Shown here in pieces: positions 1-64,000 of a stretch of 64,000 nucleotides of DNA. The translations under genes were made by a program, and so were the position numbers. The notes under the pieces are model-generated. The model saw only the letters and a program-made list of their open reading frames with translations. It was not told the origin of the DNA and did not search any database. Source of the DNA: Sphagnum magellanicum (Eukaryota; Streptophyta; Sphagnopsida; Sphagnales; Sphagnaceae); contig CM038912.1 of NCBI GenBank assembly GCA_021904315.1, forward strand, positions 8,953,061-9,017,060, in the 5' to 3' direction. Within the stretch, counting starts at the first letter, position 1, and each line of letters starts with the position of its first letter.

Positions 1-940
1 GATTCAATTTAATATATTTTTAGTTTGATAATTTTCATTGAATTTATAATGTCTTTTAATTTCAAATTTTAGAATTTATTACAATAAATTTAAATAAAGA
101 ATTATCTTAATTTTTAAATTTTGATTTGGGAAAAAAATCAAGTATGATAATTTTATTAACATTAATTTTTAAAAGATTCACAATGAAATGAAATTCAAAT
201 TTCAAATTATATAACTAAAATTCACATTTTTAATTTTAGAAAAGAATTTCAATTTTCAAATTTTGAATTTCAATTAAAAAATAAATTAGTTCAATTTTCA
301 CATGTACATTAGTTTTTTTGAATAAATAAAAATAAAAATAAAAATAAAAATTAGATCTTCCATTTTTTCAGATGTTTTTTTATATATTTGAAATATTTCC
401 CTTATTTTTAGTTTTATGGGAATAATAAAAAATAACAAATGACAACATGAGATTAGTTTTTTATTTTCATTTTTTTTTGTAGATTAATAAATTAAGAAAA
501 AAACCATTAAAATAGTCATATTTAATGATATTTAAATGATTGATTTTAGTCACATTAGACAAATCAAACAACTACACATGGGTGTCACATATGTTATGTG
601 TCTAACATAATGTTCATTTTGATTAATTAACTAGTTTCTTATAATGAAAATAGATCTATTTAATTTTCATTTTAATCAAATCGAACATAATTAGTCATTT
701 CAAACATATGAACTTTCTTAAAAATTAATTTTGACATATTGTTACTAGAAAAAAAATTATATTTTTGTTATAGTGTTAGCATGCCTATGGTTTTTGTAAT
801 AACATCATGTTGGCATGAGTGGCTATGTGAAAAAGATATTACAACCATAAGGTATGGGTAAACCCATCCTCGGGTGTACAACTTGGAATGTCACACTTTG
901 ATTTTCTTAGACTTGTCAAACTTTTAAAATCATAAGAAAC

Positions 941-977
<37 letters not shown>

Positions 978-1394
978 GACTACTTTTATTAGATTTCATA
1001 AATTTTAAAATTTGAATAATATTAATAATATTGTGTCTTTTGATCTTTTCAATTGTTACATTTAGAAAAAGTTTAAGTTTATAATGTTGGTTCCTTCCTT
1101 TGAACCTTTTTTGGTCATGAACACAAATTTGAAACATGGTTTGAAATTTTTTTGAAATTAAAAAAAGAAATCTTAAAAAAATTTGAAATCATTCTTTTTT
1201 TTATTAGGTAATTAATTGAGGAAGTATGATTTAATCATGAATTTTCAAAGTTCAAGCTAAAAGAGCCATCTCTATTAAAAATACAAAATTTTGATAATTT
1301 TTATTTTTTTATTCCAAAATAAACTTCAAGCCATATATTCAGGCATGCAATGGACAAACACGGAAAAAAAAAAAAAACAAGAAGCTAGTAATTT
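1..1394. other. AT-rich flank without a gene
   Basis: Very AT-rich sequence with long A and T runs. I see no open frame with protein-like composition. It is the left flank of the large transposon that starts at 1404. Confidence 0.7.
944..975. repeat. (TA)n microsatellite
   Basis: About 16 uninterrupted TA dinucleotides, read directly. Confidence 0.95.
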
Positions 1395-1403
1395 TCAAGA
1401 GTA
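1395..1403. repeat. Left target-site duplication, 9 bp
   Basis: TCAAGAGTA lies immediately outside the left terminal inverted repeat. The identical 9-mer sits at 13971-13979, immediately outside the right one. Mutator-superfamily insertions are known to make duplications of about 9 bp. Confidence 0.8.
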
Positions 1404-1473
1404 GGCTGGAGTGAATTAGCACCCACCAATGCACCAGTTGCGGATGAGCCCGTTGAGGCCGTTTTCTGGATGG
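1404..1473 (+). repeat. Left TIR, zinc-finger-gene side
   Basis: Reads GGCTGGAGTGAATTAG at the outer tip. It shares an 18-bp identical core (CCACCAATGCACCAGTTG, 1423-1440) with the reverse complement of the right TIR, then an inner part ending in CTGGATGG. It has about 14 extra bases relative to the right copy. Related copies are at 22348-22410, 61075-61130, 14706-14750 and 15051-15096. Confidence 0.82.
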
Positions 1474-1640
1474 ACGAAAATCCCATCCTCCCTGCCCGAT
1501 TTTTTTTTTTTTTTCCACCTCTTCTCTACCCCAAAATTTTACCCCGTCCTACCTACCACCTACCTCCCCCCTCCTACCTACCACCTACCAACCCCACCCC
1601 CGCTCACTCCATCACCAGAGCTCCAGAGACCTCGGGCGGC
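1474..1640 (+). promoter_or_regulatory. Pyrimidine-rich subterminal region, probable promoter/leader of the zinc-finger gene
   Basis: Repeats of CTACCTACC and poly-T/C lie between the TIR and the minisatellite. A homologous stretch follows the TIR of the related element ending at 22410 (reverse strand, about 22160-22340), in front of different cargo. That conservation is why I read it as a shared terminal promoter region; the promoter role is inferred. Confidence 0.45.
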
Positions 1641-1780
1641 TGTGGAGCTGGAGCGGCTGGAGCTGGAGCTGTGGAGCTGGAGCGGCTGGAGCGGGAGCTG
1701 GAGCTGGAGCTGTGGAGCTGAAGCGGCTGGAGCGGGAGCTGGAGCTGTGGCTGTGGAGCTGGAGCGGCTGGAGCGCACAC
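1640..1780. repeat. GGAGCT/GGAGCG hexamer minisatellite
   Basis: A GC-rich run of degenerate hexamers such as GGAGCTGGAGCG. Long open frames cross it in several phases, but their composition is purely that of the repeat, so I do not call a gene here. Confidence 0.9.
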
Positions 1781-1786
1781 GAAAAG

Positions 1787-2254
1787 GTAAGAACCCTTCT
1801 TCATTTTCTTGCTTGCTTGCTTGCTTGCTTGCTGCGCGTTGCGTTGTAGCAAGCTCCGAAGCCAGGCTCCGGAGCTTGCTACGCGTTGCTTTGCTGCGCG
1901 TTGCTTTGCCGCAACGCAGCAAGCTCCGGAGCCAGGCTTCGGAGCTTTGCTGCGCGTTGTTTTGCTGCGCGTTGCTTTGTTGCGCGTTGCTTTGCTGCGC
2001 GTTGCTTTGCTGCGCGTTGCTTTGCTGCGGCTCCGGAGCTTTGTTACGTGTTGCTTTGCTGCGGCTCCGGAGCTTTGCTGCGCGTTGCTTTGTTGCAACT
2101 AAACCCTGCAACGCAGCAAGCTCTGGAGCGTCTCTTGCAGCAAAAGTAAAAGAAGAACCCTGAACCTTTTGCCCCGTCCTCTATATTTTTTATTTTGCTT
2201 TGGTTTAGCTGATTAGAATTAACATTTAACAATAACTAGTGGTCTTTTGTTTAG
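1787..2254 (+). other. Probable 5'-UTR intron of the zinc-finger gene, containing a CpG-rich 15-bp minisatellite
   Basis: A donor-like AAAAG/GTAAGA occurs at 1786/1787 and a T-rich acceptor TTTAG at 2251-2254, just before the ATG at 2269. Inside are a CTTG tetranucleotide run (about 1810-1833) and many copies of TTGCTGCGCGTTGCT with palindromic GCTCCGGAGC blocks (1833-2130). CpG is far denser here than anywhere nearby. The intron call rests only on splice motifs. Confidence 0.45.
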
Positions 2255-2268
2255 GGTTGGAGGTTGGA

Positions 2269-3815
2269 ATGGGTAAGAGAAGAAGACTCAGGAAAAGCGG
2301 TGGTGGTGAGCTGGAGGTCAATATGCAAGATGTTGCATCAGATGAGGCGATTCTTCCAAATGTTGCTGAGCTGGAGGTCAATATGCAAGATGTTGCATCA
2401 GATGAGGCGATTCTTCCAAATGTTGCTGAGCTGGAGGTCAATATGCAAGATGTTGCATCAGATGAGGCGATTCTTCCAAGTGTTGCTGTGGCAGATGTGA
2501 TGATTCTTTTGCCATATGTTGCTGGAGGAGATGAGGGAATTATTGAGTCACATGTTGCTGCATCTGATGCAACAATTATTCAGCAAAATGTTGCATCAGA
2601 TGAAGCAAATAGTGAACAAGATGTTGCATCAGATGAAGAAATGGGTGAGCAAAATGCTGCTCTATCACAATTGAAATATAAAGATAGCATTAGTATAGAT
2701 TGTTTTAGAATGTGTGGACATTAGATTAAATACAGATTAAAGAAATTATACAAGTTTTTTTAGGTTTAATTATATCCGCACCTTCCATCATTTGTTGGAA
2801 GGTGCGGGATTTTTTTTGTCAAATTTTTTTTATGCAATACCTGAAAACAATGATTTATAATATCTACATTTTGTTTTTTGATCTTTCTTTTTTTGGCTTA
2901 GGTCCGGAAGTTGAATCTGATAAGGCAGCTCTGCCACTTGCACTTTTTTGCCCACCGAATTTGGCTCGGAAGGACAAGGAATGGACGCATGTTGGGTCCA
3001 AATGGAGGTGCAAAGTTGGTAATTGCACTACTGCATATTGTGCAAAATGGCTGTTGACGAAACACTTGAAGGAGGTGCATGGGTTGGTGGCTGAAAAGTC
3101 CAAACCTGGGAGGCCTTCAACTACTGCAGGTTGTCCTCGACATCAGGACCATGCCAAGATGAATGTTCGCATCTTGGGAAATGCGATGGCTGTGCAGAGG
3201 CGGAACGATCAAAAGGTGGCTAGTCGCGCTCGTGCCAAAGCACAACGCGAATGGGAAAACCTGGTAGCTATTGCAAAACAATGTCCACCATTCCCAAAAC
3301 CAAGTTTGGTGAAATTAGCTTCAGAGAAACTTTTGAAAGTGTTGGGGCTTACTGCTTGGGGTGTGGGTAGTGTGCCTCGAAATGCAGCATCGCGAATGGA
3401 GAAAGATGAAAACTTACAAGGGATTATTCGATCCACCCGTTGCGCATATGCACGGCAACTCAAGACGGCATGGGATGCCAAATATTGGGATCGAGAGTCC
3501 AATAAAACAAGTCGGAGAAAACAGTTGGCAGCTGTTTTGGATTTTCATGAATCTAGAATGATTCATGGAAGGTAAGAAATAATCATAAGCAATGTTTTTT
3601 TTTTTTTTTATTGCATTTCATCCAAGGTGTGTTAGGGTTTAACTTGGTGGTTTTTGGGTGTTTATAGGGTTCAGGGCCAAACACAGGAAGAGTTTGTGGC
3701 AACTGCAGTTCAAGTGGAAATGCAACGTCGGCATTTATACACTGCTCGTCATGCAACAAAGGCTGCAAATGCAGCTGCTGCGTACCGAGCTAAACACGGG
3801 ATTGTAGATTGCTAG
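2269..3815 (+). CDS. C2H2 zinc-finger protein encoded by the transposon (3 exons, 397 aa)
   Basis: Predicted exons are 2269-2644, 2902-3571 and 3668-3815. Both introns (257 and 96 bp) have GT..AG ends and keep frame (phase 1, then phase 2). The N-terminus is basic (GKRRRLRK). It is followed by three tandem 20-residue repeats and further degenerate copies carrying the phrase DVASDEA. One zinc finger of form C-x4-C-x12-H-x4-H lies at residues 162-185, followed by a GRPSTT motif and an Arg/Lys/Ala-rich helical C-terminal half. I do not recognise a named family. DNA binding is inferred from the finger and the basic segments. The gene lies inside a MULE, next to its left TIR and convergent with the transposase, so it is probably an accessory or regulatory protein of the element. 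A captured host gene is the alternative. An earlier in-frame ATG at 2239 lies upstream of the acceptor and was not used. Confidence 0.7.
2308..2487 (+). repeat. Three in-frame 60-bp tandem repeats inside the zinc-finger gene
   Basis: Three nearly identical 60-bp units each encode ELEVNMQDVASDEAILPNVA (one residue differs in the third). Shorter diverged copies follow to about 2640. The near-identity points to recent expansion. Confidence 0.95.
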
Positions 3816-4156
3816 ACACTGATATGGGTTAGGGTTTAGGGTTATACAATTAATTAGGTTTTATAGCCCTTTTACTTTTTGGACTACCCAATTTTGAACT
3901 ACCCAATATAATAGCATCTTCTATTCACACTTGTTTTATGGTATATGGTTAAGCATATGTCTTCTTTGTCATAATTTTTTTAGTACTTGAGATGTAAGAA
4001 TCAAACCAAAGATCAAAATGAACATTGTGTAATACTTACATCTAATATAATAACACTCACATCACTTGAAGAGTTTCAAAACAATATACACATTTTAAAC
4101 ATATAAAATACCTACATCATTTTCTATTATAAATCTCATAAGGAGATTTTCAAATA
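3816..4156. other. Region 3' of the zinc-finger gene
   Basis: AT-rich. A short TTTAGGG-like tract lies at about 3825-3840. I see no gene. Confidence 0.6.
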
Positions 4157-4520
4157 TGCAATACCCACATATACGTCCTAAAATAGTCACAGGCATATTA
4201 CATTCAGTGCAATACCCGCATCTAAGTCCCATAATAGTCGTTGCAATTTTTGGCATCCCTTGCAATACCCGCATCTAAGTCCCATAATAGCCGCTGGTAT
4301 TTTTGGCATCTTTTGCAATACCCGCATATGGGCCACCCATAGTTGTTGACATTCGTCATTCGTTGCAATACCCGCATATGGGTCCATGGTTTTCGTTGGG
4401 TTTTATAACATTTCTTGCAATACCCGCATATAGTTTCCATAATAGCCACTGGTTTTTTTGGTGTCTCTTGCAATACCCGCATATAGGTCCCATAATAGTT
4501 GCTGGTTTTTTTCATTCTTT
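4157..4520 (-). repeat. Array of ~52-bp units with the TGCAATACCCGCAT motif
   Basis: About seven units, each opening with GCAATACCCGCAT or GCAATACCCACAT and followed by a variable ATGGGTCCCATAATAG-type spacer. In the opposite orientation the motif is ATGCGGGTATTGC, the core of the other arrays in this element. Confidence 0.9.
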
Positions 4521-4639
4521 GCAAAACTTACATTTTGTCATAAAATTAATTTAGAATAATAATCAATTTAGGTATATAAAAAGACATATTTTGGGTATCC
4601 ATAGCACTTATTTGTTATTTTGAAATGACATTACATGCG

Positions 4640-5340
4640 AGTTTTGCATTTAGGGTTTAGGGTTTAGGGTTAGGTTTTCACATAAGGTTTGCTTCTTACC
4701 TTTGTGTGATAACTCCAACCTAATTTTCCTAATCTCTTTGAAGAAAATATATAATAAGATTGTATTAGGTCCCATATGTTTAAACCCAAAAAATTTCCCC
4801 CCAATTGAATATAAAATATTTTTGATAGTACATGAATTATCAACAAATTTTGACATATAATTAAATAATTAATAGACCATTATTTCAGATAATTTAAATG
4901 ATTAATTATCAAGAATTAGATAATCATTTATTTATTTGGAATAATTAACTATTCATTTGGCTTAACTTCATTTATTTGGATAATAAAAAGTTGGATCTAA
5001 AAATCAGATTAACTTTATTTGATTGATTAACTTTAATATATATATTTTTTTAATAAGTGATTAAAATCACTATTTAAGATAACTATTCCATGTTATAGAT
5101 TGCATGTTCAGCTTTTTCATGAAAAATTCATACACCAAAATAAGTTTGATCACAATTGCCATTATACTATTTGTTCCACAAACAATACAATTTTTTTTCA
5201 AATTCATGAAACAAAATAAGAATCATGGGTTTAGGGTTTAGGGTTTTAGGGTTTTTTAGGTTTAGGGTTTAGGGTAAACCCTAAACCCTAAACTCCTAAT
5301 CAATAACCCCAACCTCACACCTTTGTTAACATATTATTTT
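4640..5340. repeat. Duplicated block A, copy 1
   Basis: This roughly 0.65-0.7 kb block (starting near a TTTAGGG tract, then ACCTTTGTGTGATAACTCC, then long AATTAATTA stretches) is closely repeated in the same orientation at about 6012-6655. Its first 130-180 bp recur at about 11880-12060 and 13020-13200. All copies lie within the transposon, each followed by a GGTATTGCA array or by sequence leading to one. Confidence 0.85.
5228..5293. repeat. Inverted telomere-like tract (TTTAGGG)n/(CCCTAAA)n
   Basis: Several TTTAGGG units read rightward to 5275, then turn into CCCTAAA units. The centre is a 16-bp stem (5260-5275 with 5278-5293) with a 2-base loop. Plant telomere repeats are TTTAGGG. The arrangement is the one expected of two telomere ends facing each other, but only two or three units per side are present. 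Confidence 0.85.
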
Positions 5341-5360
5341 GAAATTAATTAATTATTTTA

Positions 5361-5555
5361 GAATGACCCGAAATGTAGATATTACATTTAGGGTAGGATC
5401 TTCATTTAAAGAAGCTTAAACCCCACAACCGTATTTTTATAGTGGCCCAAAATGCAGGTATTGCATGTAGGGTAGGATCTTCACTTAAAGAGGGCTTAAA
5501 CCCCCCATGCGTACTTTCGAGGTGACCCAAAATGCAGGTATTGCATTTAGGGTTC
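5361..5555 (+). repeat. GGTATTGCA array, ~80-bp units
   Basis: Three units of the form AATGCAGGTATTGCATTTAGGG followed by a GGATCTTC...TTAAACCCC spacer. Same family as the arrays at 6660-6935, 12261-12530 and 13400-13600. Confidence 0.88.
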
Positions 5556-6011
5556 AGTTTATATCATTATTTATATATTAAGTGTTATGAATAACAATAT
5601 ATTTGGACCAATATTTAAACCAATATTATACATCATGAAAAATAAAGTTTACATAAGGACTTGTGTTATAAATCTATAAAATATAAAATATTTTTGACCC
5701 ACTATATGAATATTTTAACCAAGAAAATATTTACTATATATCAGAAAAGTATAAATTAAAATTTCAATTAAACATAGGATTAATATATGGGAGAGATCAT
5801 TTTTATTATTATGTGAAACAGAAAAGAAGAAAGTAGAAAATTATGTGCTTTGAATTTTTTTTAAACATAATTTAAAATCTTGTTAAATTAAAGACTTTAT
5901 ATTTTATGTTTTTAGTATGAATATACAACTTTAAAAGGGGAAAAAAAATATGAACATCTTTGAAAAATATTTAAGCTTGAACTTTTTATTTTTTGATCTT
6001 GACAAACTTTG

Positions 6012-6655
6012 TATTGCATTTAGGGTTGGGTTTTCACAGAAGGTTTGTTTTTTACCTTTGTGTGATAACTCCAACCTAATTTTCGCAATCTCTTTGAGGA
6101 AGATATAGAATGAAATTGGATTGTTTCACATATGTCTAAACCCTAAAATTTTCCCCCTAATTTAATATAAAATATTTATGATAATTAATGAATTATCAAC
6201 AAAATTTGTCATATAATTAAATAATTAATAGACCATTATTTCAGATAATTTAGATGATTAATTATCAAGAATCAGATAATCATTTATTTATTTAAAATAA
6301 TTAACTAATCATTTGGCTTAAATTTATTTACTTGAAAATAAAAAGTTGGATTTAATCAGATTAATTAATTTGATATTTGATTGATTAACTTTAGTATATT
6401 TTTGTTTTAATAAGTTTTTGAAATCACTATTTAAGATAATTATTCCATGTTATAGATTGCAAGTTCAACTTTTTCATGAAAAGTTTTTACACCAAAATAA
6501 GCTTAATCACAATTGTCATTGTATTATTTGTTCCACAAACAATAGAACCTCTTTTAAAATTCATGAAAAAAAATAAGAGTCATGGATTCCTAATCAACAA
6601 CCCCAACCTCCATACACACTTTTGTTAACATATGATTTTGAAATTAACTAATTAT
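6012..6655. repeat. Duplicated block A, copy 2
   Basis: Direct copy of 4640-5340. It diverges by small indels and lacks most of the central telomere-like palindrome. Confidence 0.85.
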
Positions 6656-6659
6656 TTTA

Positions 6660-7240
6660 GAGTGACCCAAAATGCAGGTATTGCATTTAGGGTAGGATCT
6701 TCATATAAAGAACCCTAAACCCACATGCGTACTTTTGGAGTGACCCTAAATGCAGGTATTGCATTTAGGGTGGGATCTTCATATAAAGAACCCTAAACCC
6801 CACATGCGTACTTTCGGAGTGACCCTAAATGCAGGTATTGCATTTAGGGTGGGATCTTCATATAAAGAACCCTAAACCCCACATGCGTACTTTCTGAGTG
6901 ACCCCAAATGCAGGTATTGCATTTAGGGTAGGGTTTTTTCAAAGTGACTTTGCGTCTGCATATTGTGTTTAGGGCTAGGTCTTCACTTAAATGTATCCAA
7001 ACCATTTAAATGGGTTTTTTTTTTAACGTGTGGGTATTGCATTTAGGCTTGTTTTTCATTTAAACTTGCAATACTCGAACTTATACTTACCTTTACTAAC
7101 TGGAATGTTGGGGTTTCATTGCAATACCTACATCCGTACTTATCTTTATAAACTGGAATTTTGGGGCATGATTACAATACTTGCATTTGTACTTTCTTTT
7201 ACCAACTAGGATTTTGGGGCCTAGTTACAATACCTGCATC
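6660..7240 (+). repeat. 79-bp GGTATTGCA array plus tail, left copy
   Basis: Four units of exactly or nearly 79 bp (for example 6738, 6817, 6896). A distinctive tail (6930-7240) follows, in which the motif switches to the opposite orientation (GCAATACC at about 7067, 7120, 7172 and 7227). The whole block is repeated in the same order and orientation at 12261-12810, on the other side of the transposase gene. Confidence 0.9.
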
Positions 7241-7459
7241 TAACACTAATATCATCATTATGCTTGTGTTTTTGCATTTCACACTTTTTGTGCTTATTAC
7301 TTGGAAACAATAATAACCTTTATGCCATATTAAACTTCATGTGCGTGTTGAATACATGATGTTCAAAGAATTTGGGGTATGATTTCCTCCATACAAAATT
7401 GATTCTAAAAGAAAATTCTTAGTGCTAATGGCAACAATCTTGATTAGTAATTGAAACAT
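7241..7459. other. Short AT-rich spacer at the 3' side of the transposase gene
   Basis: No gene seen. It probably contains the transposase 3' UTR. Confidence 0.5.
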
Positions 7460-10176
7460 TTATTCATGACATCGTTTAGTACGTACATTTGTGTGATTGA
7501 GCATTGTTTCATGCCAATCTTTGAGGCGTTTGACACTATTTCCCAATCCATCTTCTACACGACGTAACACCAATCCTGGGTGTGAAATTGCATTTGCTTT
7601 TGTGAGGCGTATGTTACGAATATTACATGCCAATACTCTCATGTGTGAGGTGGCATGTTCACAAAGTGTCACATCGCCTTCTTTACATTCATTTGTGATC
7701 TCTTGCATTGTAGTGACCAATTGTGCAAGAGCCCTTTCCATTGGGGTTGATGAATTTATTGTCTCATTAGACCCTACAATGGCACCCATAGGGAGATCAT
7801 TTTGCTCCATGTTCATGAGCCCATCAAATTTCATGATCCCATCGTCACCTTCAAGATGATCATCTTCGTCATCATCATTGGACTCCATATCATCTGGAAT
7901 ATGTTGCGGGTCTGCAAACATGTGACGCAACCCTCCACGATGTGATCCATACCATGTTCCACAGTAATGAATGATATCCTCTTGAGAAATGTCTGTGCAT
8001 GTGAGAATGACCTTAATTTGGTGTTTACACATGTTCCCTCGCAATGCCCATTCGCATGTGCAACAAAACATTTCGGTGAATGGGAATTTCACCATGTAAA
8101 TAACATTGGGAAGGCGTTGGCTCCGTACGGCCCAAGCTCCATCACTCTCAAGGGTTGGTTGGTACACATGGCTGAGTGGAATAAGGGTTGCCTTTTCCAC
8201 ACTTCGTGTAATAATGGCCTCCACAACCTTGTTTTTTATGAAACCCCTCTTTTTCATTTCCAATGTGTGCATGTAGTGGCGTGCAACGGTTGTTGTTAAT
8301 CGCCACACCAACCAATCAATCCTACGCCCTCTAAGGCCTTTTGTGTCAAGAGCAAGCCAACGTTTCAATGCACCATGATATGATTCAATGCTCGCTTGGG
8401 TGTCTTGGTTCGAATGGGGCACTCTTCGAACACCCACCATCCATAATTCTACAAACATAAACACAATACATAAGGATGAATAACATTATACAAAATAAAT
8501 TTTGAATGCTGAACCATAATAAATATTATCACTTACCAAATTGATGGTAATAAGTCCAGAAATAGTTTGTCCACGCATCACCAGGCCTATGTTTATGAAG
8601 GCTTTCTCTCACAGCAACCCTCTCACGCTCTTTGAAGTCATCAATTGTTTCTCCATGATTGATGGACATGTACATCACATCATGAAGGTCTTGGAGGATT
8701 CCACCCCGCACTTCCACATCTTTGATTTTTTCAATACCACGTAGGCGCCATGCTTTGAGAACATGCCAACAACAAAGGTAGATGGGAACCTTGTCCATAC
8801 CCCATACGACCCTAATAAGGACACATATGCAATAAAATCTCCATGAGTGGATGGGGTTAGTACAACATAAAATGCATTTGAAGTAATCAAGAATTTTATG
8901 AAAGATATTAAAAAACATTTAAGGAATAAACACAAAGTCGATACTAGGTATAGAACTAACCGTAATGCCTTCAATTCTTGAGGTGCATCATCAACGAGAA
9001 AACATGATGGTTTCCAATGCGGCATGTGTGATAACATCTTCTCTTTTAATGGTATCAACCATTCGATCAAATCTTGCATTGTTTGCCTACTTGTAATGAT
9101 CCAGGCTAAAGGGACACCCGTGCGATGATCATCAAATCCCATCAAGGTGAATAGATGGAATTTCATGTCATTTGTGCCAAATGTTGCATCCATAGAAATG
9201 GCACCATTGTGACCATATGATAGCATGGACTCACATTGAGTTGGTGTTTGAATACCTATGGTGAATGGGACTTGAGTTCTGTTCATTTCACCAACATCTT
9301 GGAAAAAGAACACATCTTCTGGATGTTGGAGAGCCCAAGACCGAATTGAAATTGCAGGGTTAGTGTGTAAACGCCAACTCCCTTTCTTATGTTTCCGATC
9401 CAAATATGCAATGTCTTGAAGCCGAATGAAATCATCTCGTGTCATGCTTTGACCCGCATTCACACGTTCCCACCAAATTGCTTTATGCTTGTCATATATT
9501 TGTTTGGGCGTATAACCTAAGCTTAGTTGGGCCCATATGTGGTCTTTCAATGCTTGTGACATGCGTGGAGCATAACGAGACATACGAGAAATGGACTTTG
9601 GGTCATGCTCACCATGTGCGAATGACCCATCAATTCGTGTATGGGCCTTATGATAAATTGTGATCTCAGCCACATCAGGTCGTGTGTATAGACGTTTGAT
9701 TGAAAATGACGCTAGGCATCCTCGTTTAATAGATCGAATGTGGGTTGAATTTTCTCGATAGTCCTCTGGTCCATATCCGCATTGATACCTAAACCAAAAA
9801 ACTTTCAAAACGTAAATGATTACATCTTTGGTATATGAATTAAAGAAATTAAAAAGGTTAATGCCATAAATGTTTACCATGTATGCCCGAGGTGGTTTTT
9901 GATAGTTGGTTGCTTGACATCCGTTTGGCTTGGAAAGTTTTTGTAAACACTCCATTCCACAGGGGTGCTTGTATCCCCTCGTTCACCTTCCGCGACACGA
10001 GCATATGGAACATAAGCAAATTGAATGGTCACTTTATTTTGCCCTCCATGGCGTATCCCAGATGTCCACACCAAGTCTTTGTTTGAGAAAGGGGACTTGG
10101 TGGGGTTTTGGACATGAATGGAATGGGACTTTGGAACCCTTCCCATGATTGAAGGAAGTAGGACAAATTCCTGCAT
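7460..10176 (-). CDS. Mutator-like transposase with SWIM zinc finger (4 exons, 796 aa)
   Basis: Predicted exons on the minus strand are 10176-9878, 9788-8961, 8811-8537 and 8448-7460. The three introns (89, 149 and 88 bp) have GT..AG ends and all phases match, giving an uninterrupted 796-aa protein. An N-terminal Cys/His segment (about residues 103-150, CGYGPED to YHKAH) resembles WRKY/GCM1-type DNA-binding modules of MULEs. The catalytic core shows Asp300 in ISMDATFG, Asp366/367 in FLVDDAPQE, the family Cys/His element CCWHVLKAW (389-397), and Glu489 in SIESYHG as the likely third acid. A SWIM finger C-x-C-x8-C-x-H lies at 597-610, then an acidic stretch. This fits a cut-and-paste Mutator transposase acting in the nucleus on the TIRs. 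The ATG at 10176 is the first in frame. Met at 10146 is an alternative, and an upstream exon cannot be excluded. Confidence 0.85.
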
Positions 10177-10194
10177 CAAGAGAATTTATAATTC

Positions 10195-10545
10195 TCTAAA
10201 CATTCATCATTGAACAAAAACCCAAAATGCAATACATACATGGCTCCTTTAAAATCAATGTTGTGACTTGGAATTCCCATTACAACACCCATATCATGAT
10301 ATAAAAAACCTATTATTCCAATGTACATAACGTACAATACTTGCATTATGAACCCATATACTAAAACAAATTTTGGCAATACCCACATTGAGCTACTAAA
10401 CCTCCCATCATTGAAAATTTTCTCATATGCAATACCCATATTGTATCTTAAACCCATGATGTCTGAAAACCCCATGTAGCAACACCCACATAGTGATAAA
10501 TTAATGCACATTGTTTGAGAGGTACAAAATGCAATACCTACATTA
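10195..10545 (-). repeat. Scattered TGCAATACC motifs upstream of the transposase gene
   Basis: About five motifs in GCAATACCCACAT-type orientation, loosely spaced, directly 5' of the transposase start. Their position makes them candidate promoter-proximal protein-binding sites. Confidence 0.7.
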
Positions 10546-11711
10546 AGCCAAAAAACCCACACTGGTTGTGGGTAGTCAATGCATTATTCGCATATGGGTA
10601 TGAAAACATAAACTACAAAAAAATATTGAATATGAAATATTCATGTAAAAGTATAAAACCTTTATCTATGCTTGTATACTTAATGAAACTTGATGCCCTT
10701 TCTATATCCAACAACTAGGAAATGAAAAGAATTTGAATTGTGAAAATATAAACAAAAAAACAAAAGAAGTAACAAGAGACAAATGCATACCTTTAAGAAT
10801 AAAAGATGACAACATTCCACCAAAGTTTATAGTCCCAATTGAAAACGCAACCCTAAAAAATCATAACTCGTATAAAAATGGGTTAGAAAATATTAAACTT
10901 TAGGAACTATGGAACATATGGAAACAAAGGAAATTCAAATTATGGTATAGATTTAAACAAGTGAAAAGATCCAAAACCAATACAGTGAGCAAAATTTAGA
11001 GTATAAACCTTAGGTTCTGAAATATATGAACCAAATTCTTATACACTAAACAATAAAGCATAACCTTAAAAATCCAAATGATATTTTGCAAAACGCCATG
11101 TAGCAATACCCACATAATGATAATTAATGCACATTGTTTGAAAGGTGCAAAATGCAATACCTACATTAAGCCAAAAAACCCACACTGGTTGTGGGTAGTC
11201 AATGCATTATTCGCATATGGGTATGAAAACATAAACTACAAAAAAATATTGAATATGAAATATCCATGTAAAAGTATAAAACCTTTATCTATGCTTGTAT
11301 ACTTAATGAAACTTGATGCCCTTTCTATATCCAACAACTAGGAAATGAAAAGAGGTTGAATTGTGAAAATATAAACAAAAAAACAAAAGAAGTAACAAGA
11401 GACAAATGCATACCTTTAAGAATAAAAGATGACAACGTTCCACCAAAGCTTATAATCCCAATTGAAAACGCAACCCTAAAAAATCATAACTCGTACAAAA
11501 ATGGGTTAGAAAATATTAAACTTTAGGAACTATGGAACATGTGGAAACAAAGGAAATTCAAATTATGGTATAGATTTAAACAAGTGAATAGATCAAAAAC
11601 CAATACAATGAGCAAAATTTAGAGTATAAACCTTAAGTTCTAAAATATATGAACCAAATTCTTATACACTAAATAATAAACATAACCTTAAAAATCCAAA
11701 TGATATTTTGC
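10472..11711. repeat. Tandem duplication, ~620-bp unit
   Basis: 10472-11092 and 11096-11711 are nearly identical direct copies offset by 623 bp. The first difference is a single-base indel near the start. A short open frame found in each copy is only a by-product of the duplication. Confidence 0.92.
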
Positions 11712-11875
11712 CATAAGCCTTATTACAACCCTAATTATACAAACCCTAACAAAAAAAAGTCTTAGTGATATATGTCCTAAACCCAAAAAATATACAAACT
11801 ATACAAATTATATAATGCAAAATACGTTAATCTTTGAAAACAATCAAATAAATTTCATACAAAACCAAAAGAGAA

Positions 11876-12260
11876 GATATGTCTTTTACCTTTGTGTGAT
11901 CTCTCCAACTTAAATTTTTCCACTCTTTTTGAAGAAGATATAGAATGCAATTGTATTACTTCACATATGTGTAAAACCCTAAAATTTTCCCCCCAAATTT
12001 AGCCTACTTTAGATTAATTATTATACATTTGTGAAAAACTTATTAATTAATTTATGTGTCTCAACCTTAAACCTAATGGTTAAGTTAGTAGGGTATGTAA
12101 TTAATAGAGTAGCTAGGTTAGTAGGGTAGGTGGTTAATATAATAGCTAGGTCAGTAGGATAACTAGGTATTAGGGTAGTTGTGTCAGTAGGGGATAATAA
12201 ATAAGGTACCAAGGTTAGTGTAATACTTATGAGGGTAGGAAAGTGAGCAAGGTAGCTATT
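11876..12260. repeat. Block A fragment plus GTAGCTAGGTTAGTAGG-type repeats
   Basis: 11876-12060 matches the first part of block A (ACCTTTGTGTGAT...TTTTCCCCCC). 12085-12240 holds degenerate copies of the GGTTAGTAGGGTAGGTGG unit seen again near the right TIR. Confidence 0.75.
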
Positions 12261-12810
12261 CGGAGTGACCCCAAATGCAGGTATTGCATTTAAGGTGGGA
12301 TCTTCATATAAAGAACCCTAAACCCCACATGCGTACTTTCGGAGTGACCCCAAATGCAGGTATTGCAATTAGGGTGGGATCTTCATATAAAGAACCCTAA
12401 ACCCCACATGCATACTTTCGGAGTGACCCTAAATGCAAGTATTGCATTTAGGGTAAGATCTTCATATAAAGAAAGCTTAAACCCTACATGCATCCTTTCG
12501 GAGTGACCCAAAGTGCAGGTATTGCATTTAGGGTTGGGTTATTTCAAAGTGACTTTGCATATGCATATTGTGTTTAGGGCTAAGTCTTCACTTAAGGGTA
12601 TCCAAACCATTTAGATGGGTTTTTCTAAAACATGGGTATTACATTTAGGTTTGTTTTTTCATTTCAACTTGAAATACCCAAACTTATACTTACCTTTACC
12701 AACTAGAATTTTGGGGTTTCGTTGCAATACCTACACCCGTACTTACTTTTACCAACTGGAATTTTGGGGCATAATTTCAATACTTGCATTTGTACTTACT
12801 TTTACCAAAC
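12261..12810 (+). repeat. 79-bp GGTATTGCA array plus tail, right copy
   Basis: Same unit and same tail as 6660-7240, in direct orientation. Together the two form about 0.55-kb direct repeats flanking the transposase gene. Confidence 0.9.
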
Positions 12811-13400
12811 CCTAACAAAAAAAAATCTTAGTGATATATGCCCTAAACCTAAAAAATTATACAAGCTATACAAATCATATAATGCAAAATAAACTAATTT
12901 AAAAGAACATAGGAAAAAATTTAAAAACCAAAATTCAAAGGTTTTAAACTATAAATATTTATTAAGTGAAAGAAAATACGTTAATCTTTAAAAATAATCA
13001 AATAAATTTCATATAAAACCAAAAGAAAAGATATGTGTTTTATCTTTGTGTGATCCTTCCAACCTAATTTTTCCACTCTTTTTGAAGAAGATATAAAATG
13101 CAATTGTATTACTTCACATATGTGTAAACCCTAAAATTTTCCCCCCAAATTTAGCCTACTCTAGATTAATTACTATACATTTGTGAAAAACTTATTAATT
13201 AATTTGTGTCTCAACCCTAAACCTAAAAATTTCCCCCCAAATTTAGCTTACTTTAAATTAATTACTATACATTTATGAAAAACTTATCAATTAATTTATG
13301 TGTCTCAACCCTAAACCTAATGGTTAAGTTAGTAAGGTATGTAATTAATAGAGTAGCTAGGTTAGTAGGGTAGGTGGTTAGTACAGTAGCTTGGTTAGCG
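12811..13400. repeat. Further block A fragments
   Basis: 13015-13200 again carries the TTTGTGTGAT...TTTTCCCCCC stretch, a second partial copy follows at about 13220-13330, then the GTAGCTAGGTTAGTAGG unit. I see no gene. Confidence 0.7.
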
Positions 13401-13600
13401 GTGTGACCCAAAATGCAAGTATTGCATTTAGGGTATGATCTTCGTATAAAGATGTTTAAACCTCACATGCGTATTTTCGAAATGGCCCAAAATGCAGGTA
13501 TTGCATTTAGGGTAGGATCTTTGTATAAAGAAAGCTTAAACCCCACATGCATACTTTCGAAATGGCCTAAAATGCAGGTATTGCATTTAGGGTAAGGTTT
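13400..13600 (+). repeat. GGTATTGCA array, third 80-bp-type array
   Basis: Three units with AATGCAGGTATTGCATTTAGGG followed by a GATCTT...GTATAAAGA spacer. Confidence 0.88.
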
Positions 13601-13624
13601 TTAGGGTAGGGTATGTAATTAATA

Positions 13625-13770
13625 GGGTAGCTAGGTTAGTAGGGTAGGTGGTGAGTACAGTAGCTAGGTTAGTAGGGTAGGTGATGAGTACAGTAGCTAG
13701 GTTAATAGGGTAGGTGGTAAGTACAGTAGCTAGGTTAGTAGGGTAGGTGGTGAGTGCAGTAGCTAGGTAG
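13625..13770. repeat. 33-bp tandem repeat next to the right end
   Basis: Four units of GTAGCTAGGTTAGTAGGG plus TAGGTGGTGAGTACA. A related CCTAGCTACT-type stretch follows the TIR of the second element at about 61265-61290, supporting a shared subterminal region. Confidence 0.88.
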
Positions 13771-13911
13771 AAAAGTGAACAGGGTAGCTATGTGTGAGGT
13801 CAGGTCCAGGGAAAAACGAGCAGGAACCAAAAAAAAAAAAGTACAATGGTCAGCAGCAAAAAGAAATGGACTGTCATGAACCCCATCCGGCGCCAAATGA
13901 AAAAACGCAAC

Positions 13912-13970
13912 CCATCCAGTGGACAGAACGGCCAACTGGTGCATTGGTGGCTGTTAATTCACTCTGGCCC
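13912..13970 (-). repeat. Right TIR, transposase side
   Basis: The reverse complement begins GGGCCAGAGTGAATTAAC and contains the 18-bp core identical to the left TIR (13933-13950). The inner CTGGATGG also matches. The 9-bp duplication follows at once. Confidence 0.82.
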
Positions 13971-13979
13971 TCAAGAGTA
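13971..13979. repeat. Right target-site duplication, 9 bp
   Basis: TCAAGAGTA, identical to 1395-1403. Confidence 0.8.
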
Positions 13980-14705
13980 AGCCAACATGTAACTCCAGAA
14001 GATGCACCCCAGACACCTACCTATAACATTGGACGAGTCGACAGGGACATTGCTGCTTGCAGAAAGTCGGAATTAGGACATCAAGGTCCAGTCCAGTAGT
14101 GATAAAGTATGGATTGCACTGAACCTTCACAATCTGCTCCTGCCTCGAAGACTAGAGCTCAACTCTGCACCCAACTGGAACTTTGAACTTCTGGGAGTTT
14201 CTGAATCTACTCCTGAAGCCTCACTTGTGGGTTTGAATTCAGCCAAAGGAAACAACTGGCTTTAAAGGCGAAACCTGTTCCGTTACCGATAAAGCAACCC
14301 TGCACATTTTGGAAGCTTTCAATTACGCACATGGGATAAAACAAGGGGTGTGTCACACTGTTGTCTTGCCATTTACATTAAAAAGTATCTGAAGGCAAAA
14401 GAACAATTATGAAAACTCAAATACTCCACCATGCAAAAAAAATATAATCTTCAAAAAATCCTCTAAAAGAAACCAAAATCCTTCAAGATAATATAACTCT
14501 GTAACTCATCTCAAGTTTCAACACAAGCCAAAATATCATCTTTCAAAAATCCTCATATAAAAATAGACCTATTATTATTACCTAGGGGCCAAAATCCCTT
14601 AAGCTACTACACTCTATAATGAATCTAAACACAATACCCTTGCCTACCACGCCAACAAAATGGGCCAGTTAATGCGAGGCAACGAGATATTAGAGAAATC
14701 AACCA
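13980..14705. other. Unassigned mixed-composition sequence
   Basis: Higher in GC than its surroundings to about 14350, then AT-rich. I recognise no protein or RNA in it. Confidence 0.5.
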
Positions 14706-15096
14706 GGGCCACAGTGAACCACACCCACCAGGGCACCATGAAGGATGAATGGTAATTGGTTGGGAAACAGTTGTCTGTTGGGTTGAAGTTCCCAAGCTAA
14801 CCATGGTGATTACCTCAGTTGCTTTTTTTTTCTTTACCCACCTACTAACAACCTGCTTGCTTGTGGGTTGTTAGTGAGTAGGTAGTATAAAAAGCCCTTA
14901 CCTATGTACAAACCATCTAATTACCTAATAGTTACCTATTTTCCTAACCTATCTACCTATATATGAGACCTACTTCCTACAAAATTGGTTACCAAGCTGA
15001 AACCAAATATTAACTCAGTAAGAATGGTCAACTAGAACTGAGTAATAATGGGCATCCAGTGGATGGTGTGTTGGTGGGTGCTGGTTCACTGTGGCC
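14706..15096. mobile_element. Small non-autonomous relative of the MULE (~391 bp)
   Basis: Inverted ends GGGCCACAGTGAACCAC (left) and the reverse complement of the right end GGCCACAGTGAACCAGC match each other and are recognisably related to the TIRs of the large element. The interior is CTACCTACTAAC-rich with a hairpin and no gene. I could not find a matching target duplication, so the exact ends or its history are uncertain. Confidence 0.55.
14839..14882. repeat. Hairpin inside the small element
   Basis: ACCTACTAACAACC pairs with GGTTGTTAGTGAGTAGGT around a CTTGCTTGTG-type loop, with one small bulge. Confidence 0.7.
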
Positions 15097-15859
15097 AGCA
15101 CGGACACTGGCACCTTCACCTTCTTGGGTGAGGCCTAAGAAATAATATTTGAGTTGCGAACAGTACTGTTTTTCAAATTTTTGTGAGGTGGAACATTTGG
15201 TGAATTTTGTCCAAAAAATAAGTTGAAACTACACTGGGGAAAAAGAAACAGATTTTTCCAAAATTTTCCAAACTAGAAAAAAATTGGACTCAGAGAGCAC
15301 TGATTTTCTTTGCAGATTTTTTTTTACTTGTTGAAAATATGGCGGATTTTCCCCCATTCTTCACCCCAAAAAAATCACAATTGAGCTACATTTCCAAATT
15401 TTTCTCAAAAACATTTTGCAAAATTGAAAAAAATTCGCCAAAAAAGAAAATGGTAGAAGCTATCCTCCCTAATGCTGCGTTTCTGTTTTGGAGAAATTTT
15501 GCCAAATTTCGACCTTAAAAATAATAATTTCAACCTATACAAAGGATTTTCCATTAAAAAAAATGGCCCAAATTTGCCAGATTCGGAAAGAAAAAAGTTT
15601 CCAAATTGCCAGATGAGCGTAACGTGCACGTAAAGCCACACTCCATAGCAATGGGCGGTAAAATCAACCAAGCAGGGCCCTGCCTTAGATTCCACTTTAT
15701 GTTGACCCCATGCGTACCAGAAAGTCAAAGCCATTTGTTCAAGACTTTACATGATATGGTCTATAAATTCAATGAAAAAAAAGTTAAGGTTTTGGTGCCG
15801 TGAAATCACCACCAACCTCAGATGGCACGTGCTTATCAAGACCTTACATTTGCATGTTT

Positions 15860-15969
15860 TTGAAGTCAATGAGCAGATTCTTGCCCCAATTCAAAAATAC
15901 GTGCACATGAATAAATTTGAAGTCAATCAGCAGATTCTTGCCCCAATTTGAAAATATGTGCACATGAGT
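15860..15969. repeat. 57-bp tandem pair
   Basis: Two copies of a TTGAAGTCAATGAGCAGATT-led unit at 15860 and 15917. Confidence 0.9.
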
Positions 15970-16959
15970 AAAATCAATGAAATCGGTAGTAAACATATTT
16001 TTCATCTTGTAATAAATATTATAATCAACAATGATAATTTTCACTTTATTTTGCAATGTGTCAAAATCACAATGTATTGATGCATCATGCATTATGTTGT
16101 TTTATTATCGTGAATGTCATGATACATATGTATTTTGTAAATAAGGGTGAATTTTTTTTCAAATTACATGAACAAAAAGTTATCATTTTTTGAGTTTTAT
16201 GGTTACTATAAAATAATTATTGATATATCAAAAAATACCAATACACTATCCATATGTGATGCACCAACAATACATTTTGTGTATTAACATTTTGACACAT
16301 GACAAATAGATGGTTTCATATCAAAAATTGACACATAGCATATGTTTTCCATCACTTTTCAATTGTAAAGATCTAATTGTCATTTGTCATGTATTTCTTG
16401 ATACACTAAAAAAACATTCAATTAAAAGTTGTCATGCATGTCTAAACATAACAAGGGTAAAGAAGTGTTTTCTAAAGACATGTCTATGGTAATTCCAGTG
16501 ATGATGATTTTTATCGGAGCTAGTTTAAGTAAGACAACTTTAGGCTCCATAAGTTGTCATAAACTAAACAATTGTAATGTGGAATTTCAATTTGGAATTG
16601 TTAAAAAGATTTTATTGAAGGTCAAATTTTCTGTTGTTTCACATCTTTTGTAGTAATAATGTAATGAACGATGATGGAAGAAGTGATGGGCATTCAAGCA
16701 ATAGTGCAAAATGGAAGAGGAACAACTTCCACTAGCCAATTGTTTCAAATGGGTGTGATTTGGTAGATGGAATTGTGGCATCAAGGAAGTTTGATGCTTT
16801 ACATGTTGAACACAAAGCATTATTAGAAAAAAATAATTACAAAGATTGGAATCCCCTTCTTGCTCTTTTTCTTTGGAATGGTTCAAGTCCTTGGTTGGGA
16901 ACCTAGGTACATCACAAACTTAATGGGTCATGATTTGACAATAATAGTTGTGCGAAATT

Positions 16960-22159: not shown

Positions 22160-22410
22160 GAGCTCTTCTAAGCTTTGGAGATGGAGTGAGTAGGAAATGA
22201 GGTGAGGGAGGCAGGAGGGTGGAGGTAGGTAGGAGGGAGGGAAGTAGGTAGGAGGGGGGGAGTAGGTAGGAGGGGAAAATTTTGGGGCAGAGAAGGGGGC
22301 TGAAAAATCCTTGGGCAAGGCAAGAGGATGTGTTTTTGGTTCATCCCCAAAACAGCTTGAACGGCCTCATCCTGAACTGGGGCATTGGTGGCTGTTGTTT
22401 CACTCCAGCC
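22160..22410 (-). mobile_element. Terminal region of a third MULE-family element (zinc-finger-side type end)
   Basis: On the reverse strand, 22410-22348 matches the left TIR of the large element closely (GGCTGGAGTGAA, CCACCAATGC, CCAGTT, GATGAG, GGCCGTT). The match continues through CTCTGCCCCAAAATTTT and the CTACCTACC pyrimidine tract to CACTCCATC at about 22180. The element extends left from 22410. I found no left end with a matching flank (ATAGGGCAT follows 22410), so it is probably truncated or its other end is unrecognisable. Confidence 0.7.
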
Positions 22411-26185: not shown

Positions 26186-29100
26186 TTAAGTCACAGGCTG
26201 AGCAGGTACAGCTGTTAACCCCTTCTTGGACCTAAACAACTTGAACCGGTCCAATATGTCAGCTTCATTACTGTACTCCTTGAAGACATACTCTTCCAGT
26301 TTTACATCAGCTGGCACCTTCCCCTCACTGTAACAGGTTGGACACAGGCTGAAGTTCTTTGTGATTTCTTTGAATCGAGGCCCCATAATGACATAATTAC
26401 AAGTTGCACACGTGACCCCAGTGTGCCGTACACGGTCTCCAGTCTCAAGCTTCACCAGTGTGTTCAATATGCCGAATCCCCAGTTAGTGTCATCAAACAT
26501 GATGAGAAACTCTGGGTATGAAACTTGTACCTTGTCCTCATCTCCATGTACCTCTGCAAGCTCACTTGTCCCCTGCAGAGGCTAGCAATGTTAGCAAAAG
26601 AAAAGAAGTCATCCATGAACGTCCCTGTTGATGTAATTGACAAATGAAGGGACCTTGCCACTTTGAAGAATGCTAAGAAGGGAAGGACATGTTAAGATTT
26701 CAAAGGGCCTGTGGGAATGTACCTGGTCTGGAAGATAAATGGCACGTAGGTACTTGATGTAATTTTTGGCATCTGTGTTAGGAATAATGCCCTCTCTTCC
26801 AGATGGGGCATGCCATTTCAGAATATCAAAGACTAGACGCTTCCTCTTTTCAGTTGACCCTGCACACAGTGGGGCCAGCACTGCAAAGAACATTCCAGCA
26901 TCCACTCGAACAGCTGACCCTGTAGGGTCCAGCACAGCTATGATTTTTTCATTAATCGCCCTCATTGCACCCTGCAAACCATTGCACTAGTGTTCTCAGA
27001 CACAGTGAACCTCACCACAGACCATTCAAATTTCAGCATCTGAAAATGTAGTCCATTTCCCTCAGTAATCATGTGACACTAAATGGGCCTGAATCTGTCT
27101 TGACATTTACCTGGAATGTGTCTGGAGTTAGAAATCCAAGAAGTTGATGCAAACTCTTTTCAAGCTCCTTTTTTTCAACCTTGTTGTCATTTGTAATGGC
27201 AGGAGACCTGGAAGATGCTTCTTTGAAATACTTTGTTTCAATTTCCCTCCTCAAATCACCCACATCACAGCGATATAGGCGAGTGTGTTTTTGAAACTTG
27301 CGTATGTTAAGAGCACATGCAAGGAACTCACGTGCAGTTGTATTGCTCTGTGGTGCTGGTCGAAACCTCGCATTCTCCACTATCACAAATAAGGAGTCAA
27401 CATCTGATTCATTCAACAGGGAACCATGAGAGATTATTCCCAAGACCTTGAAATGTAGAAACACAGTCACTTCAAGATCCTGGCCTTCAGTTACAGGTGC
27501 AACCCTACACTAGCTTCAGTTAAAGTTCAGCTGGGTCTTCTTAAGGGACACAACTTTTCAACATGTGATATCCATGTGCAGGTTAGATCACATACATTTA
27601 GAGACAGAATCAGGCAAAACAGGAATATAGAGAGGGCAGTGCCAAAAGACTCAAAACTGACTATTCAACATCTCTAACGAAAACTCACCAGCTATACTGC
27701 TACGTCGGCCAGTGGCACTTTGTTCAGCACTTGCAATGGCTGAGGTAAGATCCTTAGGCCGCTTCTGCATCTGCTTCAAATGCATTATGGCATCGTAGAG
27801 CTCCACCCGGTTAGTCATCTTGAAGGCTTCCTTGAAAGCTTTCCTGGCTTCTTCATAGTCACCAGCTCCCAACAGAGAAACTGCTCTATTCAATTGTGCC
27901 CTCCATTCCCCTGGCTTCAATGCAAGCACCTTCGCATACATCTCTGCAGCATCTCCATACCTGCAACATGTGCATACATAATAAAGCAATGTTTGCTCTA
28001 ACAATAAGCACCATACATGACCACCCCTGAATGTGAGAAAAATCAAACTTTCCTCTTTGTCCCACCCTGCATGATCTTGCACTTCTGGAAGTGAAAACTT
28101 TAAGAAAGAAGCTATACACTGTCTGCCCACACATTCAAACTATTGTCACTGTTCTGCTCTAGCTGCACAACAACCAATAAGGTTTTACAAGAGCTAACTG
28201 AATTCTGCTGATATAAATTCATGTATTCCAGCAGAATGATTCAGGTTCCATTTTACCTCCCGGAGTCTTTCAATAAGCCACCAAGATTATAAAGTGCATC
28301 GTGATGGTTAGGGTTCAAATCAATTGCTTTTTGGAACTCCTGAATGGCCTTGTCATCATCAGCCTGTGCATGTAGTGCTGACCCAAGATCACAATGAGCA
28401 TCTGCATAGTCAGGCTTCAGGACTAGAGCTTCTACAAGACATTGCTCAGCTGCACGGTATTCCCCCAAACCATAAAGGGCACTCCCAAGAAGCTTGAGTG
28501 CACGATAATGTTTAGCATTCAGAATTGCAGCCTCCCGATAGTGGTAACAAGCACCTATGAGCATTCCCTCTCCTTCTAAAGCAATGCCAAGATTGACATG
28601 GACCTGGGAGACAACAGAGAGGCATCAATCTAATGACCTAAAAGCCTAGCAAACAGAGCATATTTTGCAGTCATTAGTCTCAAATACCATTCCACAATCA
28701 CAACCAACACTCATCATCATATCTCTCTCACCTAGAATTGGCATATGCTTTACAGAGCTGTGTTTACAATGATAAGCAAACTACAACATTTTTAAAAAAA
28801 AGCTTGCTGGACCCCAAGAATGTAAATCTCTCCCAGCAACCTATGAGCACATAACACTTATACAGGTTTTAACAGATGCTAAAAGATCACCTATTCATCA
28901 GTGTCCTTAAACTAAAAGACAAAAAGACAAAGAACTCAACAGGACTTACCTGTGGAAGGAGGTCTTTCCACTGCACACTATTTGCCTCCCCTGCCTCCAG
29001 AGCAACCCTGTATTTCTTTTCCGCATCCACATATTTCCCAAGTGAGTAGTAAGCATTTCCCATCAAAAAGGGGGCCCGGACATCCTGTGGTTTCAGCCGC

Positions 29101-29960
29101 TCTGCAAGGTCGAAGCTTTTGATAGCCTCTTCATACCAGTGGTGCTCAAGAAGGCAACGGCCCATAGCCATGTGACGATCAAAAGCTTGATCTGGTGTCT
29201 GAACTTTACCTGCTTTCTCCCGAAACTCCGCAAGACTCTTCTTGAAAGCTGCAGATTCAGAACCTAGTTCATCCTCCCGTCTTCGCCTGTCAAAACCTTC
29301 TCCCTTATCAACTCCATCCTCCCAGTCTGCTGCTGCTGCTGCTGTGTCTACCCCATTCAGACCTCCTCCTCCTTTCTTCTCATCCCTTTGTTTCCGCTGC
29401 TTGGCCTCATATCGTTTCAAGTTAAGCTCTAGATCCTCGATCAAGCCCCATGTCTCATCATATGTGATGCCATGGTTTGGAGACCTGGCCCATGCTCCTA
29501 CATTCGACGACCTTTTGACCATATTGCCTGAGGTTTCATCAGCAATGGATGGGGTTGGAAGCCTAGATCCTGAACCACTGAGGTCTACACGAGAGTTGGT
29601 CTTTGTATCAGCTGACTGTAACTCATCGTTTCCATCCCCTGCAATGGAAGCCGACGCCAAATGCAGTCCTAGGGCATCAAAATCCCTATCCACATCTCCA
29701 GCTCCATCATCATAGGTCCTCAACAGACCTTCAAAGCTTAGTCCCTTCTGACCTTCAATGAACTCCCCGTATGTCCTGAAAACCTCGTCCAGTATGGCCT
29801 CTATCTGATCTTTGCTGAACTTCACTCGGGGGTTGACAGCAATCACAAGCGCTGCCATTTCATCTCGATTCAGGCAGCCATCTCTGTTGCTATCGAACTC
29901 ATTGAAGATCCCGCGAACTTTTTGTGCTCGTATACTCAATCCTTGACCGGTTTCTGACAT
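26186..29960 (-). CDS. EF-hand and tetratricopeptide-repeat protein (6 exons, 879 aa)
   Basis: Predicted exons are 29960-28950, 28603-28257, 27960-27689, 27484-27111, 26971-26723 and 26572-26186. All five introns (346, 296, 204, 139 and 150 bp) have GT..AG ends and matching phases. A canonical EF-hand loop, DSNRDGCLNRDE, lies at residues 23-34. A Ser/Gly-rich linker follows, then TPR units from about 260 to 515 (pattern ALKLLGSALYGLGEYRAAEQ), and a C-terminal region with two CxxC pairs (806/809 and 828/831) like a ZZ-type zinc site. This order matches the Arabidopsis calcium-binding tetratricopeptide proteins At1g05150/At2g32450, which are of similar size. A Ca2+-responsive scaffold is the family expectation; partners are unknown. 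The start is the first in-frame ATG, as a longer frame upstream has no ATG. It looks intact and is probably a single-copy host gene. Confidence 0.9.
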
Positions 29961-61074: not shown

Positions 61075-61339
61075 AACCAGCCCTCATGACTGCACCAGTT
61101 GGCCGTTCTGTCCATAGGATGAGCTGGATGATTCGCCTCTTTTTCATTCGCCTCTTTACCTTACGTTAACCAGCATCCTACCACAGTCAACCTTTTTTGG
61201 CTGCTGACCTTTGACCATTTTTTTTTTCATTGACAATTTTTCCCAACCCTGACCTCCATACTACCCACCCACCTAGCTACTATAATGACCTAAATCTTAG
61301 CCCTGCCTACTAACTAACAATTAATCCTTAACTTACCTT

Positions 61340-63060: not shown

Positions 63061-63099
63061 TGATATATGGATTTAGCATTTTGGCCTCCCATAGGTAGT

Positions 63100-63860: not shown

Positions 63861-64000
63861 GATAATATGGATTTAAATTTTACAATTATGGCCATAAACC
63901 ATATCATATATTCTCCATACTTAGCATTTAGGGTAATATGTGCATGATTGTATAAGGTTTAGATGAGGGATACAAATTAAGTACTTAAAACATGTACATT

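Follow-up and report, generated by a model that had tools for sequence, protein, structure and literature searches.

An apparently intact two-gene Mutator-like element of Sphagnum magellanicum with a short motif arrayed in its non-coding DNA

A 64,000-nucleotide stretch of Sphagnum magellanicum contig CM038912.1 (positions 8,953,061 to 9,017,060; hereafter the window, with positions counted from its first letter) contains, at 1404-13970, what is best read from its sequence as an apparently intact, autonomous-looking, two-gene Mutator-like element (MULE) that measures 12,567 bp between its target-site duplications. One gene encodes a transposase and the other, gene 2, which is convergent with it, a predicted protein of 397 amino acids (aa). 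The non-coding DNA of the element holds tandem arrays of a short motif, GGTATTGCA, which within the window is confined to this element and one relative. The arrays suggest, without proving, that the element makes a protein recognizing its own DNA, and the gene-2 product is one candidate for that protein.

Ends and genes of the element

The element is flanked by a perfect 9-bp target-site duplication, TCAAGAGTA, with copies at 1395-1403 and 13971-13979 that agree in 9/9 bases. Directly inside are the terminal inverted repeats, the left at 1404-1440 (plus strand) and the right at 13933-13969 (minus strand), with one additional C at 13970 ahead of the duplication; 33 of their 37 nucleotides (nt) pair (89%), and both ends share an 18-bp exact core, CCACCAATGCACCAGTTG. 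Because two random 9-mers of the window agreed in only 7 of 200,000 draws, chance is an improbable source of a duplication lying exactly at the ends. Among the 25 inverted pairs listed, of 415 in positions 1-16000, a single one is longer than the element ends (44 nt at 70%). An earlier note on this DNA had proposed these coordinates, with the inverted ends, the 18-bp core and the 9-bp duplication, and the sequence bears it out in each respect. MULE target duplications measure 8-11 bp and their terminal inverted repeats 14-500 bp (PMC6446971). The element has features of the superfamily, namely a transposase domain, a 9-bp duplication directly outside its ends and 37-nt terminal inverted repeats, and is very probably a MULE.

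The transposase gene (796 aa; 7460-10176, minus strand) is stop-free over its four predicted exons, 10176-9878, 9788-8961, 8811-8537 and 8448-7460. Residues 297-395 match the Pfam MULE transposase domain PF10551 with an E value of 4.7e-12 and 46.6 bits, against a cut-off of 27.6; a weaker match to the ZSWIM1-3 RNaseH-like family falls under its own cut-off. Candidate catalytic stretches are SMDATFGT at residue 298, FLVDDAPQ at 363, CCWHVLKAW at 389 and QASIESYHG at 485, and a CxCx8CxH stretch lies at residues 596-610; these are putative DDE and SWIM motifs. A SWIM or other zinc finger occurs in the transposases of many MULE groups, though not of all. The SWIM family itself scores 16.5 bits on an isolated 74-aa piece of the transposase and 6.5 on the whole protein (cut-off 19.6). 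The 164-aa N-terminal piece matched no family in Pfam, and a sequence comparison of the transposase with the PDB gave no match up to an E value of 1.

Gene 2 (2269-3815, plus strand) is open over three predicted exons, 2269-2644, 2902-3571 and 3668-3815, so that the pair of open, convergent genes of 796 and 397 aa described in the earlier note stands, with the PF10551 match identifying the first. The gene-2 protein begins with the basic stretch MGKRRRLRK and continues through 20-aa repeats to a C-x4-C-x12-H-x4-H pattern and KPGRPS; the gene contains three 60-bp in-frame tandem repeats that are nearly identical (99%). When the six frames are scored by a codon model derived from the transposase, that of gene 2 comes first in both exons; a model from one host open reading frame (ORF) also puts it first, though with a score just below zero for exon 2 (-0.075). 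None of 1000 shuffles produced an open run as long as the 281 codons that include exon 2, the longest reaching 216. The weak point of the gene model is the first donor, 2645 (TGG|GTGAGC), which scores -0.1 where donor 3572 scores 7.5, on a rough matrix. Nine GT donors reach the acceptor at 2902 in frame, giving products of 282-420 aa, and the in-frame joins number 251 when GC donors and other acceptors are permitted. Given the weak first donor and the many alternative joins, the N terminus of the gene-2 protein is a prediction.

No credible family match was found for gene 2 in Pfam, searched with pieces and the whole protein, or in NCBIfam, searched with a 271-aa part. A YscW match on the repeat part was discounted, and the six PDB matches of the 271-aa part (E values of 0.65-0.84), all to a phosphofructokinase-2 enzyme, are not credible. 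An AlphaFold model of exon 2 from the single sequence has a mean pLDDT (predicted local distance difference test) of 44.7.

A motif confined, within the window, to the element and one relative

The 9-mer GGTATTGCA occurs 25 times in the 8,982 bp of non-coding DNA of the element and 7 times in the 2,936 bp of a second, diverged element (61065-64000, plus strand), which has a right-type end and an inner part and runs off the window. Exact sites number zero in the 3,585 bp of element exons and zero in the other 48,497 bp of the window. With one mismatch permitted, the counts are 35 in element non-coding DNA, 11 in the second element, 2 in exons and 5 outside, and 300 shuffles of the non-coding pieces gave a mean of 0.08 and a maximum of 2 GGTATTGCA sites. 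As a control, of the 79 repeated complex 9-mers of the element, 13 are found three or more times in the second element, whereas none reaches that number in any of 16 stretches of matching length taken from outside.

The motif is usually extended to ATGYRGGTATTGCA and lies in repeat units that vary around it in length and flank. Class A, a 53-bp unit (4208-4512), forms with one adjoining GGTATTGCA site the array at 4157-4512; class B comprises 80-bp units at 5356-5553 and 13407-13594 and 79-bp units at 6660-6929 and 12259-12534; class D is a second 53-bp unit, at 7084-7240 and 12687-12808. Both array orientations are present in the element. Single scattered sites also occur, one of them within intron 1 of gene 2 and others, partly duplicated, upstream of the transposase gene at 10228-11161, where 10499-10798 and 11122-11421 are 98% alike. 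In the second element the motif lies in 51/102-bp units at 63076-63798, the 102-bp unit being class C. The GC-rich leader of gene 2 (1404-2268, plus strand; 55% GC) carries tandem repeats of its own, without the array motif. In the 79-bp units, the motif sits within a 29-bp near-palindrome, ACCCTAAATGCAGGTATTGCATTTAGGGT (6743-6850), which is perhaps a dimer site; the second element also holds another array, at 61350-62045, of TAAACCTATATTTCTTATTGG-like units.

Because the copies lie in tandem units, the argument for the motif rests on its context and not on its frequency. In a comparison of 40 of the 46 sites with at most one mismatch, grouped by hand and leaving out 6010, 7067, 11153, 12635, 12670 and 12723, the 14-bp core agrees between unit classes at 0.81-0.90 and the flanks at 0.20-0.36; one half of the 102-bp unit against the other gives flank values of 0.45 and 0.49. 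Beyond the core, TTTAGGG is common to the 79-bp unit of class B and one half of the class C unit (0.81). A fairer test is the extension ATGYR, which was not used in site selection: it is carried by 26 of the element's 35 sites and by 10 of the 11 in the second element, but by neither of the 2 exon sites and by none of the 5 outside; these counts cover all 46 sites of the two elements with at most one core mismatch, and sites of the same array are not independent. The YR positions of the core read CG, CA, TG or TA in 45 of 46 sites, a variation that fits, without proving, CpG decay after methylation and may thus point to a silenced past.

A possible role for gene 2

In the mechanism that we tentatively favour, the element would move by cut-and-paste, its DDE-type transposase, to judge by its family, cutting at the terminal repeats and inserting with the 9-bp stagger that would account for the duplication seen. 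Gene 2 would encode a DNA-binding accessory protein, and this protein would bind the ATGYRGGTATTGCA arrays that fill the non-coding DNA; once bound, it would keep the genes of the element from silencing, in the manner of the VANC proteins of Arabidopsis VANDAL elements and without their domains. Taken as a whole, and leaning on the identity of the element and on binding of the motif by a protein that the element encodes, this reading comes close to an even chance, if slightly under it. Such binding by some element-encoded protein we consider evenly balanced; that the protein would be the gene-2 product rather than the transposase is a more doubtful step, and an anti-silencing effect would be less likely again.

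Several observations weigh against this proposal. The zinc-finger assignment of gene 2 is weak: a 73-aa piece reaches 13.2 bits for zf-C2H2, short of the cut-off of 25.2, and the whole protein gives no such match. One Pfam family alone exceeds its cut-off in gene 2, Vps4_C, and does so with the exon-1 piece by itself (23.0 against 21.3); this match, which we discount, drops to 16.5 with the whole protein, below the cut-off, and covers 23 residues of the repeats. DUF1985 and DUF287 gave no Pfam match in gene 2 at E values up to 10, in a search whose HMMER filters drop most weak matches, and no kinship of gene 2 with VANC is therefore shown. The transposase is the sole product with a firm family match and could itself be the binder. 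The outermost 1.4 kb on the gene-2 side of the element contain no motif. As sites were selected on 9 of the 14 core positions, the contrast between core and flanks is partly built in. The unit classes may also be partly homologous, since the two 53-bp units appear related on visual inspection and class B shares TTTAGGG with half of class C; independent gains of the motif may therefore be few.

Three other explanations have to be set beside the accessory-protein reading. The arrays could be internal or subterminal binding sites of the transposase, with gene 2 acting otherwise, for example by helping integration as proposed for MURB. MURA alone has been reported to lower methylation in the terminal repeats of non-autonomous copies (PMC10398659), and mudrB is apparently required for integration (PMC6446971), both of which would fit. 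The motif is nevertheless absent from the terminal repeats and spread over the interior, for the most part in the DNA that separates the genes or lies upstream of them. Such interior positions are not where cut sites are recognized, and we regard a transposase-binding role for the arrays as unlikely. Roughly on a par with it is the view that the arrays are neutral satellites, in which slippage and duplication multiplied one ancestral unit within the family, leaving the shared core as a remnant of common descent. Tandem units clearly multiply here, as the many arrays and the 98% duplicate upstream of the transposase gene attest, and the TTTAGGG shared beyond the core is what such descent could leave. 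Against this, classes that retain the core and the unselected ATGYR agree in their flanks at only 0.20-0.36, and none of the 25 exact sites falls in an exon.

Gene 2 might, finally, be a captured host gene fragment, a passenger in the style of Pack-MULEs that contributes nothing to the element. MULEs commonly capture host sequence (PMC6446971), and a gene without credible family match would suit this origin. Gene 2 has, however, a start of its own, an open frame over three exons and a transposase-like codon preference, and it occupies the convergent position known from MuDR; we consider a passenger origin quite improbable, more so than either account of the arrays.

Relatives, surroundings and comparison with known systems

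Traces of related elements lie elsewhere in the window. Sequence similar to the left end of the element lies at 22410-22201 on the minus strand (73% over 221 bp), and 61065-61121 is similar to the right end (81% over 57 bp); as left aligns with left-type and right with right-type, each end type is kept across diverged elements. At 22201-22410 a third related element is represented by a diverged end of the left type, with no partner end found in the window, and no 9-bp partner duplication was found for the end at 22410 or for that at 61065. Two small, related terminal repeats, GGCCACAGTGAACC..., stand about 391 bp apart at 14706-15096, with no target duplication found; they may mark a non-autonomous relative or be ends that do not belong together. 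No second coding copy of the transposase or gene 2 was detected in the window at E values up to 1.

The ratio of observed to expected CpG is 0.68 in gene-2 exon 2 (2902-3571), 0.65 in two transposase exons (within 7460-9788), 0.76 in the GC-rich left end and 0.28-0.35 in the long non-coding stretches of the element; sampled surroundings give 0.14-0.27 and a host gene span 0.32, the latter with introns included and so not like-for-like with exons. The intact duplication and open genes are consistent with recent movement of the element, of which the CpG contrast may be a weak hint. Host genes on the minus strand encode EF-hand and TPR domains (26186-30017) and, in ORFs at 57680-59257, a PA domain and a RING finger; Rfam and tRNA scans of the window found nothing.

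Searches beyond the window covered prokaryote genomes and IMG/VR, which are expected to hold few plant contigs, so that negatives there say little about plants. Pattern matches to the 271-aa part of gene 2 (9 in prokaryote genomes, 2 in IMG/VR) and to the transposase (2 in IMG/VR with the whole protein, 10 in prokaryote genomes with one exon) were in no case confirmed by tblastn, and the motif with TTTAGGG (21 bases) had no match in IMG/VR. The 18-bp terminal core is present in three IMG/VR contigs with an identical flank in all three. In the one contig whose ORFs were inspected, the ORF containing the core is presumably a tailed-phage terminase, and 58 transposase residues match that contig at 29% (E value 0.004), on the strand opposite to the phage-like ORFs and with a stop inside. 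We take all of these matches as coincidence. Searches of the open-access literature, which take in neither subscription papers nor Repbase, listed no MULE with gene 2 or the motif, nor did any listed title concern a VANC-like system from an organism other than Arabidopsis.

Two maize transposons offer partial parallels. MuDR has a convergent gene layout and a 9-bp duplication, as here, with terminal repeats far longer than the approximately 37 bp of our element, and Spm/En carries subterminal motif arrays. MuDR pairs a transposase gene, mudrA, with a second gene of unknown role, mudrB (PMC3276141, PMC6446971), the latter reported only from Zea (PMC3276141); in Spm/En, the element-encoded protein TnpA activates its own element in correlation with demethylation (PMC10398659), although Spm/En is a CACTA transposon and so of another superfamily than our MULE. 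Mutyl of Yarrowia (mutA/mutB) resembles the element in having two ORFs, short terminal repeats (22 bp), a 9-10-bp duplication, a C2H2 pattern and an antisense second ORF (PMC6446971 Table 1). It differs in being from a yeast, and the Introduction of the same paper puts mutB in the same orientation; the comparison is one of published descriptions. The excerpts of PMC9865632 make no mention of arrays in Mutyl. Since Table 1 of PMC6446971 lists second ORFs for several MULE groups, the two-gene layout alone is not new, and the undescribed two-component lineage suggested in the earlier note is at most a possibility; of the unlikeness to MURB that the note gave for gene 2, the present analysis supports the absence of a credible family match.

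The closest parallel is VANDAL21 (Hiun) of Arabidopsis, a MULE whose VANC21 protein binds YAGTATTAY, a motif that is dense mainly in non-coding DNA and often lies in tandem repeats differing between copies (PMC5735166). Tandem peptide motifs are frequent in the variable regions of VANC proteins, and the motifs at VANC6 targets are different ones (PMC5735166); RNA-directed methylation hits the same non-coding regions (PMC10398659). Like VANDAL21, the Sphagnum element combines a MULE and an accessory gene with one short motif in varying tandem units, dense in non-coding DNA (25 exact sites) and absent from exons (0), and the three 60-bp in-frame repeats of gene 2 recall the peptide motifs of VANC. 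It differs in that VANDAL elements have VANA, VANB and VANC where there are two genes here, in the sequence of the motif and in the presence of both array orientations, the VANDAL21 motif having the same orientation within arrays; judged by its accessory protein, the element would not be placed in the VANDAL/VANC group.

A VANDAL/VANC-like mode of action is nonetheless the best single guess for gene 2, on account of the DNA side of the system, the plausible DNA-binding motif of the protein and its peptide repeats. More specifically, gene 2 could be a sequence-specific zinc-finger anti-silencing factor unrelated to VANC and co-evolving with the ATGYRGGTATTGCA arrays to which it would bind, which would mean that MULEs invented self-recognizing anti-silencing more than once; we offer this as a speculative possibility with the odds against it. 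With a candidate protein and a candidate target both available, the question can be tested directly, and the window supplies both ends, both genes and the motif, enough to search plant genomes for the group. If gene 2 does read the arrays, sequence-specific anti-silencing would not be peculiar to the VANDAL group and would have evolved more than once.

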